Origin: Archaeoglobus profundus DSM 5631
Lineage (GTDB): Archaea > Halobacteriota > Archaeoglobi > Archaeoglobales > Archaeoglobaceae
DNA length: 64,000 bases
Reading direction: 5' to 3'
Assembly: GCF_000025285.1 (NCBI RefSeq)
Contig: NC_013741.1
Coordinates: 496,001 to 560,000, forward strand
The notes beneath the pieces are model-generated. The model searched no databases. It worked only from the letters and a program-made list of their open reading frames with translations, and had not been told where the DNA came from. The position numbers were made by a program, and so were the translations under genes. Positions 20,168 to 27,279 of the stretch are shown here, piece by piece; positions within the stretch are counted from its first letter, which is position 1, and every line of letters begins with the position of its first letter.

Positions 20168-20968
20168 CTAGGATTCATCTAAGGCCGAACAAATCTCGCA
20201 ACGAGGATTTCTCTTCAAATTAGCCGTGCTGAATTTCATCTCTGCGAGATTTACTGAAATGTAGTTAGGTGGTTTTGAAATCTCGAAAAGTACATTAAAA
20301 GCTATCATAGCAGCGAGACTTGCCAAAAAACTTAGAGTTGGAGCAGGACTAACAGCGTAACCTGTTTTCATGCTTAAATCTACTTTATCGCTAAGATTTG
20401 TTTTGTCAAGTACCGGCAACTCGAAGTAACTACACCTGAGGCATGCAGTCTTACCGGGAATTATTAACCTTACATGTCCCCTTAATCCATCCGTCGTAAA
20501 CCCAGTATCAATCATTGTGGTATTAGTTTCCACACAAATGTCGTTAACGTAAATTCTAGAGCTTGTATTGTCAGTAGCAGTTACAACCAAATTTGCTTCT
20601 TCTACAATTTCTTGTAAGTCAATTTCAAGAACATTCTTTGGTATTGCCTCAATTCTCACGCTATGGTTTTCAAATATCTTCTCGAGCTTACGCTTCAAGA
20701 TCTCGGCTTTATTTTTTCCTATATCGCAGACTTCAAATCCATCTCTGTTTAGATTTTCAATTTCGACTATATCATTGTCTATCAAGACCAAATTGCCGAT
20801 ACCTAGTCTTGTAATCAGCCTCGCAATTGGATTGCCTAAGCCACCACAGCCGACGATTATTACCTTCATTTCTCTCGCTTTTTCGTAGCTCCACCCCTTT
20901 AGACCTATGAGTCTGCTAAACTCTCTCGGAGTCGAATCACTAGAAGAGGAAAAATTCGGTAACGCCAT
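20168..20968 (-). CDS. E1-like ubiquitin-activating/ThiF-MoeB family adenylyltransferase
   Basis: A 266-residue ThiF/MoeB/E1 protein. The ATP loop is VGCGGLG (39-45), the ribose aspartate is in IDNDIVE (64-66), the ENLNR arginine finger region is 71-75, and ATDNTSSR is 131-138. Paired cysteines CLRC (176-179) and CEIC (257-260) form the usual structural zinc site. The crossover region (about 195-215), where ThiF and E1 enzymes carry the catalytic cysteine, has none. It should adenylate the C-terminus of a ubiquitin-like protein; how a thioester forms is unclear. Last gene of the ten-gene operon, overlapping the previous gene by 29 bases. Confidence 0.88.
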   Translation of the reverse strand: MALPNFSSSSDSTPREFSRLIGLKGWSYEKAREMKVIIVGCGGLGNPIARLITRLGIGNLVLIDNDIVEIENLNRDGFEVCDIGKNKAEILKRKLEKIFENHSVRIEAIPKNVLEIDLQEIVEEANLVVTATDNTSSRIYVNDICVETNTTMIDTGFTTDGLRGHVRLIIPGKTACLRCSYFELPVLDKTNLSDKVDLSMKTGYAVSPAPTLSFLASLAAMIAFNVLFEISKPPNYISVNLAEMKFSTANLKRNPRCEICSALDES

Positions 20969-21233
20969 CTTTCACGACCTCCTCCATATTTAATCTAACT
21001 TTCATCCCGTTCCTAGTTACAGTGAAGTTTGTAAACTCAAAATCTAGGAAACCATTCACGACTACACTTTTAAACCACTCGGAGTACGTAATCGCATTTT
21101 TTACGAAAAAGTACAATGGTACTTTGTTCTTATATTTCAAGGAAACTACTCTCGGTTTTCGGTAGTATATTATAGATTCTTCTTCATTTAGGTCATAAAC
21201 TCCAAATAACTGAGATTCGCTATCTGCTATCAA
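20940..21233 (-). CDS. small unknown protein between JAMM and E1 genes
   Basis: A 97-residue protein I do not recognise. It is rich in aromatic residues and predicted beta strands (for example the segments around residues 28-45 and 58-82) with an acidic N-terminus, and ends in FFLF. It overlaps the JAMM gene by 14 bases and the E1 gene by 29 bases, so it is certainly translated as part of the operon. It has no Gly-Gly tail, which argues against its being the conjugated modifier. A compact beta fold acting as an adaptor is a guess. Confidence 0.6.
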   Translation of the reverse strand: MIADSESQLFGVYDLNEEESIIYYRKPRVVSLKYKNKVPLYFFVKNAITYSEWFKSVVVNGFLDFEFTNFTVTRNGMKVRLNMEEVVKDGVTEFFLF

Positions 21234-21768
21234 TATGGTACTTAACTGTGGCTTTTTCGAGGTAATCCGCAGAAGCTAGAGTGTAAACTCTGAATGGTAT
21301 ACCATATTTGTAGAAGATCTTGACTTTCACTTTAGAAAAAATTTCGTGATCTTCAACAACTTTAAGCCTAATCTGCTTACCGTTTTTATTGAACGCTTTA
21401 ATTTCGAACTTTTTTGGATCCATAACTAAAGCTATCCTGTTAAGTTTGCTTTTCCTTAAGTTTGCGAGATCCGTGCTTGAAAGATACGCTCCAAATCCAA
21501 CGTGAGTGTGGATAGTCCCTAAATTTTCGAGCCCTGCTGGTAGGAAAGAGTTTTCAAGCTGATTGTAAGTTACACTTACAGGAGACGAGGTTCCCTTGTA
21601 TTTGAATATGCTCAAGACCAAGTAGCCTTCATCAGTTACCACTCCAACCAGTGCTCCCACTATTTCATTTTCTCCCGCTTTTACAGCAGCTTCGTAGAAG
21701 TCTAGTAGCTCAGTTTCACTTACTAGCACATACTCACAGTTAGCTCTACAAAAGTTTAAGAGGAACAT
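21220..21768 (-). CDS. JAMM/MPN-domain metallopeptidase (deubiquitinase-like)
   Basis: A 182-residue JAB/MPN protein with a complete JAMM motif: glutamate in NEIVGALVG (E35), then HTH (H87, H89), seven residues, S97-S-T-D100. These residues bind zinc and activate water in Rpn11, AMSH and CsaB-type isopeptidases. It starts at the base after the Ubl-E2 stop. In this operon it would process a ubiquitin-like precursor or remove it from targets. The C-terminal third, after about residue 130, is extra to the minimal domain and not recognised. Confidence 0.9.
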   Translation of the reverse strand: MFLLNFCRANCEYVLVSETELLDFYEAAVKAGENEIVGALVGVVTDEGYLVLSIFKYKGTSSPVSVTYNQLENSFLPAGLENLGTIHTHVGFGAYLSSTDLANLRKSKLNRIALVMDPKKFEIKAFNKNGKQIRLKVVEDHEIFSKVKVKIFYKYGIPFRVYTLASADYLEKATVKYHIDSR

Positions 21769-22542
21769 CTACTCACCCCTTAGAATTCTTAAAATGTCCG
21801 ACATTTCTCTGAGTGTTGTAGATTTCTCCCCTAAAGCTTCGTATCCGATCCTGATCCAAGGAAACACAACATCCGAAATATAGTGTGCTATGCCTAGCCT
21901 CCCAGTCCAATTCTGAAGATACTTTTTATCACCACATACCACAATTATTTTCTTACCATTAATGTAGAACGGATAGACATGTTTGTGAATATTTGAGGCC
22001 ATGTATTTGTCAAAAAATCTTCCACGAAGAGTTGCCTCGGGATGGACAAGTGGGTATGCTGGCGGTAAGAATACAAGCAGTTCAACTGATCCATAGCTTC
22101 CCACTCTTATACATCCCTTAACCGTCTTTAAACCTTCATACGTATAAAACGCTGGATTTACATAAGCAAACCCAGGGTTGTTTCTCCCTATCAGGTTGTT
22201 AAGCATTTTAATCCTGACGATTTCTTCCCTTGCCCTTTCATTCCACTTCGGACTGTTTACTTTAACATTCCTCAAAAAATTGGGGAAATCAGGGATTATA
22301 CCCTGATCCCCCTCACTTAAAACCCTAAATCTAGTTTCTCCTGTCTCTCTTACAATATCTCTGACTGTCTTGCCAGGATCAACTGGTAATCCAGAAGTTG
22401 TGGCGATAATTGACTCTCTCCACTTTTCGGGAGGCACAGCTCTCATACCGACCTCAAAAAGCCTTTCATTTGGGTTTGCCTCAACATATATTTCCTCTCC
22501 ATCTACCTCCAAAATTAAGGGTATTGCCCCCATACCGAACAC
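21769..22542 (-). CDS. ubiquitin-like domain fused to E2/UBC-fold conjugating enzyme
   Basis: A 257-residue two-domain protein. Residues 7-76 look like a beta-grasp ubiquitin-like domain (ILEVDGEEIYVEANPNERL...KTVRDI...FRVLSEG). Residues 100-240 look like an E2: strand then proline turn FLPPAYPLVHPEA (158-170), then GKKIIVVCGDKKYLQNW, where Cys203 and Trp212 fall at the places of the E2 catalytic cysteine and the tryptophan after it. There is no internal Gly-Gly after the Ubl part, so that domain is probably a docking module rather than the modifier. GGGGGTG precedes the ATG. It should accept the activated modifier from the E1. Confidence 0.82.
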   Translation of the reverse strand: MFGMGAIPLILEVDGEEIYVEANPNERLFEVGMRAVPPEKWRESIIATTSGLPVDPGKTVRDIVRETGETRFRVLSEGDQGIIPDFPNFLRNVKVNSPKWNERAREEIVRIKMLNNLIGRNNPGFAYVNPAFYTYEGLKTVKGCIRVGSYGSVELLVFLPPAYPLVHPEATLRGRFFDKYMASNIHKHVYPFYINGKKIIVVCGDKKYLQNWTGRLGIAHYISDVVFPWIRIGYEALGEKSTTLREMSDILRILRGE

Positions 22543-22545
22543 CCC

Positions 22546-22728
22546 CTAACGAATTAAACTCACAATCGAAGGAATTACACTCTTAATTCGAACAACCCAG
22601 AATGTCCAGACCTGTTTAGCAAACGATATCAGTTCTGGTATCGTTAAGTTCGTTGGGACGTCGACTTTACCTTCTATGATCGGTATAGCGATTGCCAAAA
22701 AATAATGAAAATCAGAATCTTCTTGCAC
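22546..22728 (-). CDS. small hydrophobic protein of the Ubl operon
   Basis: A 60-residue protein with probable GTG start at 22728 preceded by GAGGGGTG. It has an acidic N-terminus (MQEDSD), a hydrophobic stretch at about 9-18 and a second amphipathic to hydrophobic segment at about 38-59 ending in SLIR. Three bases separate its stop from the Ubl-E2 start. It is not recognised; a short membrane-associated peptide is plausible from composition. Confidence 0.5.
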   Translation of the reverse strand: MQEDSDFHYFLAIAIPIIEGKVDVPTNLTIPELISFAKQVWTFWVVRIKSVIPSIVSLIR

Positions 22729-22745
22729 ATGGCATTACACCCCTC

Positions 22746-22891: not shown

Positions 22892-24088
22892 TCACCCCCT
22901 TACAAAGTTCTCCAAAACCTCGTCATCGACCAATCCTGTACCAAGGTAGTTCTCTAGTTCAGGAATAGCCTCATCAACAATCTTTCTGTGGTTGTGAAGA
23001 AAGTGCCTGATTGCCATTTCGTTACCCTTCAGGAAGGCAGTCACGGAGATTGGGATGTACTTTATTGGCAGGTGAAATCCGTCAGCTATAATATTTTCTG
23101 CAAACTCAAACTCCTTGCCGAAGATTTCTAGATCTACAATTTTAACCGGAGAAATTATCGAGATTCTCACGAGTTCGGAATCTCTTGCATGGAACACGGC
23201 TCTCGCGTATAGCGAAGTAGAATCGAAGTCAATAGCCCTTTTGGCGAGTTTGAATATATCCTCTCCACCGATGCTCTTTACCCTAGGTAAATGTGTGATA
23301 GATCTGTATTCTGTGTTCGTTGTAAAGAATCCTCCTCTTCCGATGATGTCTGTCAGATCTATTCTGTTAATTCCTGCCTTGTATTTCGAAAGCAAGAGTG
23401 TCATTATCGTGTTGAGTATATTTAGATCGCTCAGCTTTTTAAGTGTTGGTTCTCTATCGAAGTAGCTCAAAATTAGGCTACGTCTGTCTCCAACTTCGTT
23501 CATTAGCTTTAGCGTGACGAGAATCGAATTGGCAATTTGTGGAGCATAGTCACCCCTCGAAAGGCTTACGTAATCGATTATCTGAGCTTTACTTTCAATG
23601 CTCCTTACAAGTTTCTTAACCTCGTTTGAAACTGCTAGTGCGTAACCAGAAGACGTCCCGCCTGCGAATATAAGCTCGATAAATGTAGATGGTACTACTC
23701 CGTACTTGGATTTAAGCTCGTTTAAGTATTTGTTTATCTTAAAGCTAATCTCTGCGGACATTGGACGAATTGTCTCATAACCGACCATCGCGTTTTTTCC
23801 ACAGCCGTCTATACCTAAACCTATTACCAGCGCCGAACGGAAGCAGTGCTTAACTTTTTCAAAGACGGCCGATGCTACATTATCGTCGGCTAAAATACAT
23901 ATCAAGTGAGTGTATTTCCTGAGTATTGCCGGAAGCTTTGTGGTGACAAGGTTAGCAGATTCATCTCCAACTGATGTTAGAAAGTAGCCATTGGACCACA
24001 TGTTTCTCCATTCCGGTGGCTCGTAGATTTCTTTGCCAAACGATTCTGGCTTTATATTGAAAACCGTCCTCACAAACATCCTCATCAC
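22892..24088 (-). CDS. divergent FtsZ/tubulin-superfamily protein
   Basis: A 398-residue protein resembling FtsZ/tubulin. The segment ELIFAGGTSSGYALAVSNEV has AGGTSSG (142-148) in place of the tubulin GGGTGSG phosphate loop (T4), with the helix after it. Before it come GLGIDGCGKNAMVGYE (90-105) as a T3-like region and VIG-type strands; after it, NSILVTLKLMNEVGDRRSLIL fits the guanine-binding helix H7 region. The N-terminal T1 loop is degenerate (SVGDESAN). It overlaps the preceding membrane-protein gene by ATGA, so the two are translationally coupled. A polymerising GTPase tied to a ubiquitin-like system is suggested; sequence divergence leaves some doubt. Confidence 0.68.
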   Translation of the reverse strand: MMRMFVRTVFNIKPESFGKEIYEPPEWRNMWSNGYFLTSVGDESANLVTTKLPAILRKYTHLICILADDNVASAVFEKVKHCFRSALVIGLGIDGCGKNAMVGYETIRPMSAEISFKINKYLNELKSKYGVVPSTFIELIFAGGTSSGYALAVSNEVKKLVRSIESKAQIIDYVSLSRGDYAPQIANSILVTLKLMNEVGDRRSLILSYFDREPTLKKLSDLNILNTIMTLLLSKYKAGINRIDLTDIIGRGGFFTTNTEYRSITHLPRVKSIGGEDIFKLAKRAIDFDSTSLYARAVFHARDSELVRISIISPVKIVDLEIFGKEFEFAENIIADGFHLPIKYIPISVTAFLKGNEMAIRHFLHNHRKIVDEAIPELENYLGTGLVDDEVLENFVRG

Positions 24089-24867
24089 CTCAACAACCTA
24101 AAATTCGTTTGAGCAAATTCTTCCTCCTCCTTAGGCAACTTATTAGCCAGATAGTACCTCCAGACAAAGACTGCCGTGCCAGCGATTAATGCTAAAATCA
24201 CTACAGCCAAAATCGGAGACGAGTTGTCAGGCTCTGACACGGTTAGTAATCCCTCTATTTCGTTTAAAATTGCATTTGCTTCTTCCAGTTGCCCGTCTTC
24301 CAGCGTACTTTTAGCAATTCTGAACTTCTCCTCGATGATTAGCTGAAGTCTTTCTGGAATTGCACTCTTGACTTTTTCGTATTTAGCATAAAGTTCTCCG
24401 TACCTTTTCAACAACTGTAATCGTTCAGATTGGGTAGTGGACTTATCTCTCGTCGTCTTTTGCGGAGTTAGTGTAAGTTCTTTTTGGATAGAAGGGGAGT
24501 CGATACGGTAAGCATTTGGAAATATGACTGCCAATGTTTCTGCATCAGGCATATCACCTATTATTGTAATCTCGACGGTTTGGCCCTTTGAAATTTTGAA
24601 ATCGATTGTGTCTGACTTGATTGTATTGTATGGTACACTCTCTTTCGTTAAAACATCAACTACCTTAAACGTCGGATTCTTGAGCTTTGTGTATACTTGG
24701 ACACTCTCGTCTTGTTGTCCCAAGATAGTTACGTAAATTCCAACTACATCACCAACTGTCGGATTTTCTGGTCTGACTTTTGCACTCACGACAAGTGGCT
24801 CCGCTGCACAAGCTATGGGTAGAATAACTATTGCCATTACTACAGCCAAAAACTTAGCCCAATACAT
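24085..24867 (-). CDS. exported, C-terminally membrane-anchored protein
   Basis: A 260-residue protein starting at ATG 24867, set by GGAGGTGG just upstream (a longer frame to 24891 has no such site). Residues 1-22 form a signal peptide ending ACAA (the cysteine at 20 could also be a lipidation site). Residues 24-133 are beta-rich with an immunoglobulin-like look (VVSAKVRPENPTVGDVV). Residues 146-208 are helical, probably coiled coil. One membrane helix at about 218-238 precedes a short cytoplasmic tail (KLPKEEEEFAQTNFRLLR). The outside-facing domain and inside tail, coupled to the FtsZ-like gene, suggest a membrane tether. Confidence 0.7.
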   Translation of the reverse strand: MYWAKFLAVVMAIVILPIACAAEPLVVSAKVRPENPTVGDVVGIYVTILGQQDESVQVYTKLKNPTFKVVDVLTKESVPYNTIKSDTIDFKISKGQTVEITIIGDMPDAETLAVIFPNAYRIDSPSIQKELTLTPQKTTRDKSTTQSERLQLLKRYGELYAKYEKVKSAIPERLQLIIEEKFRIAKSTLEDGQLEEANAILNEIEGLLTVSEPDNSSPILAVVILALIAGTAVFVWRYYLANKLPKEEEEFAQTNFRLLR

Positions 24868-24891: not shown

Positions 24892-25013
24892 TTCGAGGCC
24901 ACGTCTCGCTAAAGATAAACTAAAAAATAAAAACTAAATATTAAGAATACATAGGATTTTCTTGTGCCTTATCAGAATTAGACGTTGTACTCCACAGTTC
25001 TTCGCATTCTTTC
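24892..25013. promoter_or_regulatory. AT-rich gap, possible internal promoter
   Basis: About 120 bases of very AT-rich sequence separate the two small upstream genes from the membrane-protein gene. On the minus strand it holds T-rich and TTAATATTTAG-like stretches that could both terminate and restart transcription. It is the only sizeable gap inside the operon, so the first two genes may form a separate unit. Confidence 0.3.
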
Positions 25014-25322
25014 TCAACTAAGGTCTTTAAGAGATCGACCAACTTCTGTTTGATAAGTCCATTGAACAGAAAATCTCTCTAGTTTGTTATACCTCGGAAA
25101 CAATACAAGCTTAAGCAAGAATTCGTAGTAATCTATGCATGATAACGCAAATTTCTCTAAAACAAATTCGACATCTTCAAGCTTTACGCTACCCAGATCT
25201 CTTTGAATAGCTTCTCTGGCAAATAAGAGTGCTTTAAATACGATGAAGCGCGTTGGATCTTCTTCAATTTTCCTAAAAACTTCCTCTATAAACTCTTCAT
25301 AATCTACCATATCCGACATCAT
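25014..25322 (-). CDS. small acidic helical protein of the Ubl operon
   Basis: A 102-residue protein, not recognised. The N-terminal 80 residues are acidic and predicted mostly helical (DYEEFIEEVFRKIEEDP; VKLEDVEFVLEKFAL), ending in a more polar tail. A strong GGGGGTGAT lies just before the ATG. It sits upstream of the membrane-anchored protein on the same strand after a 120-base gap. It could be an adaptor or substrate of the conjugation system; nothing in the sequence says which. Confidence 0.5.
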   Translation of the reverse strand: MMSDMVDYEEFIEEVFRKIEEDPTRFIVFKALLFAREAIQRDLGSVKLEDVEFVLEKFALSCIDYYEFLLKLVLFPRYNKLERFSVQWTYQTEVGRSLKDLS

Positions 25323-25358: not shown

Positions 25359-25553
25359 TTAAATAAAAAATATTTTTGATAACTCTTCTAGCGCCTTGCG
25401 TTTATCGAGTTTTCCCTTAAAAACTACTGTTGCACGATGGATGTAGCCATCTTTACCGAGATAGCGGAACTTTACTAAGCTAATGTCTCGATCTGCAATA
25501 TATCTAACAACTACCACATTATCCACGCTCCTTAGGTAGTCGGTGGTCCACAT
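25359..25553 (-). CDS. small basic protein opening the Ubl operon
   Basis: A 64-residue protein with alternating beta strands (NVVVVRYIADRDISLVKFRYLG...ATVVFKG) and a C-terminal helix (KALEELSKIFFI). Not recognised. It has no Gly-Gly terminus, although the size and beta-rich pattern are compatible with a compact beta fold. A perfect hairpin sequence lies five bases upstream of the ATG and there is no clear ribosome site, so translation may be controlled. Confidence 0.5.
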   Translation of the reverse strand: MWTTDYLRSVDNVVVVRYIADRDISLVKFRYLGKDGYIHRATVVFKGKLDKRKALEELSKIFFI

Positions 25554-25806: not shown

Positions 25807-26223
25807 ATGGAGTTTGGTAGGATAATTGTACACAACAAAGTACATGGTACTGAACAAATAAAGCTCGCACCCCCAGGAGGGGCAAGGGTAAGACACTACA
25901 TATTTAGGATATATTACGATGATGGAAGCGTTGAAAAAAGTCCAACATTCTCCGTAGGTCCTGTAGGTCCAGGAGGTGAAATGAAATACGTTCACGGATT
26001 AATAGATGTTGAGGGAGTAATACTACCCGCAGACATTAAAGATGACCCAATACACTTGGAGTACTATGACGAGAAGTTAAAAAGAGCTAAATATATAATA
26101 CGTGTTAATAAAATAAATCGATTCGAAATAGGTGGTTGGACACCCTCAAAATTGTCTACAAGACAAAAAGGAATAAAAATAATTGAGTTGATAGAATATG
26201 ATACTGCATTAGTAGAGGTGTAA
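25807..26223 (+). CDS. unknown protein, AT-rich orphan gene 1
   Basis: A 138-residue protein, not recognised. The first 80 residues are rich in beta-strand pattern with Gly/Pro turns (APPGGARVRHYIFRIYYDDG; VGPVGPGGE), the rest alternates Lys/Ile. Codon choice is far more AT-rich than the housekeeping genes, with many ATA, AAT and AAA codons, a sign of foreign origin. Three bases separate its stop from the next start, so the pair is one unit. It is divergent from the Ubl operon. Confidence 0.55.
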   Translation: MEFGRIIVHNKVHGTEQIKLAPPGGARVRHYIFRIYYDDGSVEKSPTFSVGPVGPGGEMKYVHGLIDVEGVILPADIKDDPIHLEYYDEKLKRAKYIIRVNKINRFEIGGWTPSKLSTRQKGIKIIELIEYDTALVEV

Positions 26224-26226
26224 TTT

Positions 26227-27279
26227 ATGGTAGAGGAAGATGTGTTTAAGAGAGAATATTGGGACAACGAGAGCGTAAACAGGTATTTAGAGAAATTAGG
26301 TGTGTCACCAGAACAAAAAGCTTTGTATTTTGCAACAACCTTTTTTGGAGTACGTGACGACGGGAGATATAACCCACAAGAAGCTATTATCAAAGAGGCA
26401 AATAGAATTTATGAAATGTTTGAAGGTCGGCGAGGTCGTATAGATTCGAGAACTTTTAATAAGTTATGGGAGACAGGACTCTTAGCCCCTGTTGATTATT
26501 TCTATGTTGATCCTATAATACTAGCAGAAGGTAGAGGTTCAAAAAAAACTTGGATTGGAATCCATCCTTGGGTGCTGGAATTACTAGAGGAGGTTGATAA
26601 AAGGAAACAATCATTAGATTCAATTTTTATGAATATACCATTGAAACCAAGACCTTATTCTCCAGATTATAATTACTGGTTCAGAGCAAAGGGTAAGTAC
26701 ACTTTCATAACTAAAACTTTCTACAGATTTATGTATGGTTATATGATCAGCAACATATTATGTAGCATCAATGATGATAAAGTAGCGAACATTAAAATAA
26801 GAACCCTAACTCGCACAACTAGAATCGAAAAAGATATTAATAAAATTATACAATATCTTGAAAGTAATCTGGAGAACATAAATTTCGATGTTAGATATTA
26901 CCACGAAGAAAAGTTCGAAATACTTACAACACTAATCCAAAGTTTAAAGGATAAAATCGAAGAGTTTATTACGCCAGATTCAAAAATTAATCGTTTATTA
27001 AACTTGATAACATCGATATTGATAAAACAAAACAATATACTAAACAACATTTCGAAAATAGAAAAAATTTGGCTTGTAGAAATTAGAAGAAAAGGTGAAC
27101 CAAAAGAGGTAACATTTGGTGGAAACATTGCATCATATACTCCTGGCTTCCTAGAGACAAAAAAGTACGGAAGCACCATATACGTCAATAGAGAGGATTT
27201 CATCAAGTACGTTCAAGAATTATTTAACCTATTGGATATGATCGACGATGAGAAAGATGAACTTCAAGTATTATTTTAA
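26227..27279 (+). CDS. unknown protein, AT-rich orphan gene 2
   Basis: A 350-residue protein, not recognised. The N-terminal half has an aromatic-rich region (YNYWFRAKGKYTFITKTFYRFMYGYM, about 148-173, shown here only in part as FRAKGKYTFI). The region about 195-275 is Asn/Ile/Lys-rich and likely coiled coil. The C-terminus is acidic. Like its partner it is unusually AT-rich and has no signal peptide or clear membrane helix. A T-rich terminator follows. Possibly a virus- or plasmid-derived gene. Confidence 0.55.
   Translation: MVEEDVFKREYWDNESVNRYLEKLGVSPEQKALYFATTFFGVRDDGRYNPQEAIIKEANRIYEMFEGRRGRIDSRTFNKLWETGLLAPVDYFYVDPIILAEGRGSKKTWIGIHPWVLELLEEVDKRKQSLDSIFMNIPLKPRPYSPDYNYWFRAKGKYTFITKTFYRFMYGYMISNILCSINDDKVANIKIRTLTRTTRIEKDINKIIQYLESNLENINFDVRYYHEEKFEILTTLIQSLKDKIEEFITPDSKINRLLNLITSILIKQNNILNNISKIEKIWLVEIRRKGEPKEVTFGGNIASYTPGFLETKKYGSTIYVNREDFIKYVQELFNLLDMIDDEKDELQVLF

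Follow-up and report, generated by a model that had tools for sequence, protein, structure and literature searches.

The 64,000-nucleotide stretch analysed here (the window) corresponds to positions 496001-560000 of a 1,560,622-base contig of Archaeoglobus profundus DSM 5631, whose genome measures 1.56 Mb. An operon runs from about 25322 to 20168, on the minus strand throughout, and combines genes for membrane proteins and a tubulin-like protein with a ubiquitin-like (Ubl) tagging set. The parts, in operon order and window coordinates, are:

24941-25322, minus strand: first gene, homologous to the 136-aa first gene of a second copy of the operon (L003, below), where its place in the order is kept
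24085-24867, minus strand: exported membrane anchor, 260 aa, 44% identical to the L003 protein
22892-24088, minus strand: open reading frame for a 398-aa tubulin/FtsZ-like protein that likely starts at ATG 24079, 61% identical to L003
22746-22886, minus strand: single-TM protein of 46 aa, from ATG 22886, predicted N-out/C-in, with the tail DDIEWW
22546-22730, minus strand: small protein with a signal peptide, 67 aa long in L003 and frameshifted in A. profundus
22300-22542, minus strand: ubiquitin-like domain of BilA/DUF2604 type by profile and fold comparison, ending in SEGDQG (Gly81)
21769-22296, minus strand: E2-like domain fused to the Ubl, UFC1-like, with Cys203 and His220 conserved
21220-21768, minus strand: JAB/JAMM protease (EIVG...HTHVGFGAYLSSTD), matched by Prok-JAB and by Rpn11, CSN5 and AMSH in the PDB
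about 20940-21233, minus strand: C-terminal extension of the JAB protein
20168-20968, minus strand: E1-like adenylyltransferase (ThiF), 266 aa, nearest solved structures MccB and UBA5

The second copy lies on a 5384-base contig of Archaeoglobus sp. GB_MAG3_049 (L003/L028, hereafter L003) and has the identical order from the first gene to the E1. Identity between the two is 33% for the 46-aa protein, 60% for the Ubl-E2 fusion, 59% for the JAB and 71% for the E1, and all seven gene comparisons indicate purifying selection (pN 0.20-0.47, pS 0.72-0.88), with pN below pS in every operon gene and far below it in most. The L003 contig (1-5384) starts just ahead of the first gene and stops just past the E1; a search for terminal overlap found none, and a circular element is therefore not indicated. 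Presence is scattered: among 392 genomes of the phylum two carry the operon, which is missing from both sampled same-genus genomes and from the remainder; besides L003, neither the tubulin-like protein nor Ubl-E2 turned up again in genome contigs or the 392 phylum genomes, and viral contigs, plasmids and phages yielded no copy of either. The operon is a rare, accessory archaeal set and, since only two copies are known, the association of its genes rests on one comparison. A precise empty site could not be defined in the sister genome. On the flanks, an RNA ligase-family gene (PF09414; 19489-20064, opposite strand) adjoins the operon and has no match at E 1e-20 in two same-genus genomes or in genome G188; upstream lie a small ORF (25359-25553) and, at 25807-27279 on the plus strand, two genes of 138 and 350 aa, none with a convincing Pfam family.

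The product of 22542-21769 is a 257-aa fusion of a ubiquitin-like and an E2-like domain. With hhalign the ubiquitin-like domain matched BilA at 95.2% (E 2.7e-8), while cross-comparisons to BilB, BilC and BilD stayed below 0.3%, and local alignment to BilA gave z values of 10-13. Scored as isolated domains against DUF2604 (cut-off 25 bits), the L003 domain lay above the threshold at 25.6 bits and the A. profundus domain below it at 20.4; rhizobial BilA proteins are annotated DUF2604 and adjoin JAB and E1-E2 genes. The structural model of the domain was usable (pLDDT 57-88 per block of ten residues) and has a ubiquitin fold over model residues 1-79, matching UFM1 (Z 10.8) and BilA (8tyx; Z 10.0, 2.6 A over 74 residues, 24% identity). 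On profile and predicted fold together, the domain appears clearly related to bacterial BilA. UFM1 was considered as its family and set aside, as the domain resembled UFM1 in sequence no more closely than it did ubiquitin or NEDD8 (in a comparison with hand-entered UFM1, ubiquitin, NEDD8 and SUMO1 sequences) and the Pfam Ufm1 and UFC1 models miss the locus; a conserved LRGE at the C terminus of the fusion, considered as a ubiquitin-like tail, was rejected in turn, since it overlies the ribosome-binding site of the next gene. The C-terminal Gly of BilA aligns with Gly81, after which IIP or GIP leads into the E2 domain. BilA is processed by its JAB partner (PMC11354881), and from this and the Gly81 alignment we infer that the JAB separates Ubl and E2 here, probably by cutting the fusion at Gly81.

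The second domain (residues 83-257) comprises a helix and strands whose order fits the UBC fold, with Cys203 and the downstream His220 invariant in both copies; a conserved Cys with a downstream His has been described for the E2 folds of one bacterial operon type (PMC1779556). Compared with a UFC1 reference sequence checked against PDB 7ovc, the L003 domain scored 64 (z 7.5), which none of 1000 shuffles or 183 decoy segments reached, and the alignment placed Cys on Cys and shared a GxAH...PW stretch. The A. profundus domain alone scored 39 (z 2.2); the joint z was about 6, with the best of 3000 shuffles reaching 115 against an observed 103, and these significances are somewhat overstated because the resemblance to UFC1 was first spotted by eye. 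Neither UFC1 nor any E2 family of Pfam matches the domain, and it bears no detectable similarity to BilB (hhalign 0.2%, local z below 2). We treat it as a probable E2 of the UFC1 type, an assignment with moderate support.

The JAB protein carries the JAB/JAMM metal site (E, HxH, SxxD; the Glu in EIVGALVG, and HTHVGFGAYLSSTD) and matches Prok-JAB at 1e-6, above the cut-off; among PDB matches (Rpn11 at 1.3e-4, CSN5, AMSH), CsRpn11 is nearest. Its conserved C-terminal part of about 95 residues (pN 0.30, pS 0.86) belongs in L003 to one 281-aa ORF with the JAB and forms in A. profundus a separate frame after an apparent frameshift; it has no family match, and its candidacy as a second Ubl was dropped for want of profile support. 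This part overlaps the E1 gene by 29 nt, an equal length in both genomes. The E1 matches ThiF (PF00899) at 161 bits against a cut-off of 28.1, and MccB and UBA5 about equally (~1e-30). The catalytic Cys250 of UBA5 aligns with a Tyr in the L003 alignment, within TGYA in both species, and the protein (one adenylation domain) has neither the inactive half nor the Cys domain of a Bil-type E1. The presence of a Ubl tagging set (Ubl-E2, JAB and E1) in this operon is well supported.

Several known systems share parts of this arrangement. As in bacterial Bil (ISG15-like; BilA-D) and in the rhizobial operons with DUF2604 that make up class 6c in Iyer et al. 2006 (PMC1779556), a BilA-type Ubl with a predicted C-terminal Gly tail, an E1, a JAB and a probable E2 are encoded together; unlike Bil, the archaeal operon fuses the Ubl to an E2 that is not BilB-like, has an E1 of half the size that lacks the second adenylation domain as well as the Cys domain, and adds tubulin-like and membrane genes. 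Its E1 is near UBA5 in size and sequence, the catalytic region of its probable E2 is UFC1-like, and its Ubl has a single predicted C-terminal Gly and a fold match to UFM1 on a par with that to BilA, all of which recalls the UFM1-UBA5-UFC1 pathway; however, a Tyr stands in for the UBA5 catalytic Cys, a JAB replaces the UFSP protease, similarity of the Ubl to UFM1 in sequence is marginal, and Pfam UFC1 does not recognise the E2. The Caldiarchaeum ubiquitin operon (CsUb, E1, E2, RING, Rpn11; PMC5654768, PMC6043591) likewise offers an archaeal E1-E2-JAB set, and the JAB is nearest its CsRpn11, but here the Ubl is BilA-type and E2-fused, no RING was recognised, and the tubulin-like and membrane genes are additional.

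Between the anchor and the Ubl set lies the gene that an earlier note, made from the sequence, had read as a divergent FtsZ/tubulin. Its open frame (398 aa, minus strand), its AGGTSSG loop and its degraded T1 loop are all borne out: residues 34-48 read GYFLTSVGDESANLV, nothing resembling canonical T1, and the glycine-rich T1 is replaced by TSVGDESANLV, without GxGG. The frame is conserved beyond chance (pN 0.24 against pS 0.88 between A. profundus and L003). The segments of interest are:

23774-23821, minus strand: T3-like segment GLGIDGCGKNAMVGYE, residues 90-105, aligned to Tubulin_2 by hhalign in this register
23645-23665, minus strand: T4-like loop AGGTSSG, residues 142-148, in a Tubulin_2 match of residues 117-176
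23348-23359, minus strand: T7-like DLTD, residues 244-247, then GG; DITD in L003

These T3-, T4- and T7-like motifs occur in order and at FtsZ spacing; the acidic T7 pair (DxxD/E) lies at the FtsZ distance from T4, D244, T246, D247 and the following GG are invariant in both copies, and the S1-to-T7 length is 229 positions against 231 in FtsZ. The T4 signature [SAG]GGTG[SA]G is broken, a Ser replacing the Gly after Thr (SGGTSSG in L003). Tubulin_2 (PF13809) is the sole family listed at E up to 1 in a search against 24,736 Pfam models, at E 0.1 and 12.3 bits, below its cut-off of 27 bits, and PF00091 gave no match. Profile comparison placed Tubulin_2 sequences in the first 12 places ahead of the first decoy, and our own Tubulin_2 profiles reached about 1e-4 per sequence with both orthologues, the best of 5000 shuffles being slightly higher. 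A global S1-to-T7 comparison with FtsZ/CetZ scored 39.9 against 38.4 for the best of 113 decoy segments; the same test with CetZ only failed, and FtsZ-only and CetZ-only profiles did not separate the protein from shuffles. The AlphaFold model, built from two sequences, was too poor to use (pLDDT 40), and its matches to CetZ (Z 6.5) and FtsZ (Z 5.7) stand among many Rossmann-type folds.

A reading in which the Ubl operon is real and the 398-aa protein is some other Rossmann-type alpha/beta protein, for example a substrate adaptor, with its T4 likeness due to chance, draws on the broken signature, the lost T1, the mixed Rossmann matches of the low-confidence model and further weak matches to PfpI and allophanate hydrolase. 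That no Pfam family other than Tubulin_2 was listed, in correct register and outranking decoys, and that the S1-to-T7 region agrees with FtsZ in its motifs and lengths, argue against it, and we regard this reading as possible and distinctly the less favoured. Membership of the tubulin superfamily is, on balance, the assignment we favour, with moderate confidence. The distant relationship proposed earlier is thus plausible, but the canonical signature is broken, T1 is lost and the fold is not confirmed; we caution against filing the protein as FtsZ or tubulin, of which it is a probable distant relative, and since three canonical FtsZ/CetZ-type genes lie elsewhere in the genome it is not this genome's FtsZ. 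FtsZl1/Tubulin_2 (Makarova and Koonin 2010, PMC2875224) is similar in its predicted membrane-associated operon and in the weak profile match around T3-T4-H4, but the archaeal operon has a Ubl pathway instead of vWA, GTPase and OmpA partners, and the 398-aa protein lacks the long coiled-coil C-terminal part and falls below the family cut-off. With FtsZ and CetZ and their anchors (SepF, FtsA, ZipA) it shares possible T3, T4 and T7 loops and a membrane partner; here T1 is lost and the signature broken, and the anchor is an exported single-TM protein for which no kinship with SepF, FtsA or ZipA was recognised.

The upstream gene does encode the exported anchor described earlier. By hydropathy, by which all membrane segments were assigned, it has an N-terminal hydrophobic signal segment (residues 9-27), an ectodomain that is first beta-rich and then helical, a single TM helix (217-235) and a short cytosolic tail. 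The ATGA overlap reported between this gene and the tubulin-like gene was a misreading: the junction is GTGA with a GTG start, or TGATG with an ATG at 24085. The likelier start is ATG 24079, because the L003 N terminus (MFEDSEVNIQPEFFGKE) aligns from Met4 of the A. profundus frame; with that start the two genes lie a few bases apart, and GAGGTGAT serves the second as ribosome-binding site. The L003 genes stand 4 nt apart, and there a true ATGA overlap joins the tubulin-like gene to that of the 46-aa protein. The 46-aa protein, encoded directly downstream of the tubulin-like gene, owes its predicted N-out/C-in orientation to positive charges following the TM segment. The anchor ends in NFRLLR in A. 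profundus and NFRLMR in L003, and the C-terminal peptides NFRL[LM]R and DDIEWW are far better conserved than the TM segments and the remainder of both proteins, a pattern that suggests docking peptides. The proposal that the anchor recruits a polymer to the membrane, as FtsA and ZipA do, is reasonable in its anchoring part, given these tails, but the analogy overlooks the Ubl pathway: the tails at the membrane may be there for the Ubl machinery no less than for the polymer. C53 binds UFM1 by means of an IDWG/D motif (PMC10183829), which DDIEWW resembles; this may be a lead.

Taken together, these observations lead us to propose, tentatively and at a little under even chances, that a Bil-like Ubl pathway works at the membrane with a probable tubulin-superfamily GTPase, both encoded by one accessory archaeal operon. 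E1 enzymes of this family adenylate the C-terminal glycine of their Ubl. Ubl-E2 would be made as a precursor that the JAB cuts after Gly81 (SEGDQG, before IIP), as the BilA alignment implies, leaving a Ubl with a C-terminal Gly; the ThiF/UBA5-type E1 would adenylate this glycine, and the Ubl would pass to Cys203 of the E2, perhaps straight from the adenylate, a direct transfer proposed because the UBA5 catalytic Cys is a Tyr here. Targets would then be tagged, and the JAB could reverse the tagging. The tubulin-like protein would assemble beneath the membrane, where the anchor and the 46-aa protein would hold it by their tails, and could be a scaffold or a substrate of tagging. In a more specific version, the pathway would either tag a membrane-tethered tubulin-like polymer of its own or use that polymer as its scaffold, the Ubl-E2 fusion would be processed, and the E2 would be a prokaryotic relative of UFC1; this version we hold to be speculative and, in its full detail, rather improbable.

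The same parts could serve defence. Bil systems have an anti-phage role. By analogy, the Ubl might be put on viral particles or proteins, with the membrane parts and the tubulin-like protein detecting infection or killing; the joint occurrence of a BilA-type Ubl with E1, E2 and JAB, the patchy distribution described above and the location of the rhizobial relatives on conjugative plasmids all point that way. PADLOC, however, gave only generic E1-E2 models (for the ThiF protein) and a weak JAB match, no neighbouring defence genes were recognised and no virus or plasmid copy was found, and a defence role is one we regard as conceivable and on the unlikely side. Beside the BilA operon of Rhizobium etli p42a (L098, 9613-10971) stand a gene with a TIR domain and one of the caspase family, an arrangement like that of defence loci.

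The operon might instead be decaying, its accessory genes pseudogenes and the remaining frames leftovers. In comparison with L003 the frame appears to shift at three points (near 25080, ~22690 and ~21225), which speaks for this, and all three are confined to accessory parts: the first gene, for which a Pfam search gave no family and whose A. profundus copy is a 102-aa ORF (25322-25014) with the frame resuming past the first break, the small signal-peptide gene and the C-terminal part of the JAB. But the six main frames (anchor, tubulin-like, 46 aa, Ubl-E2, JAB catalytic, E1) are open with purifying pN/pS ratios, and at least one frameshift, that at ~22690 in a T-run, falls within a homopolymer, where faulty sequencing may account for it, so that we think decay improbable as an account of the whole. 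The three breaks themselves may be sequencing errors or early decay; programmed frameshifting was judged less likely than either. Least probable, and in our view quite doubtful, is a simple FtsZ-type system for division or shape, having a membrane anchor and unrelated Ubl neighbours: the exported anchor adjoins the tubulin-like gene and is translationally close to it, but L003 keeps the contiguous order including Ubl-E2, JAB and E1, and the genome already has its canonical FtsZ/CetZ-type genes.

Ubl conjugation involving an E2 is rare among archaea. Here, one euryarchaeal operon combines a BilA-type Ubl, a UFC1-like E2 and a UBA5-type E1, where a 2023 survey placed UFM1 and UFC1 in eukaryotes only (PMC10183829). 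The system is compact and could be rebuilt in E. coli, making cleavage, charging and polymerisation directly testable. If the tubulin-like protein is real, a Ubl pathway and a member of the tubulin family would here be linked genetically, directly and outside eukaryotes.
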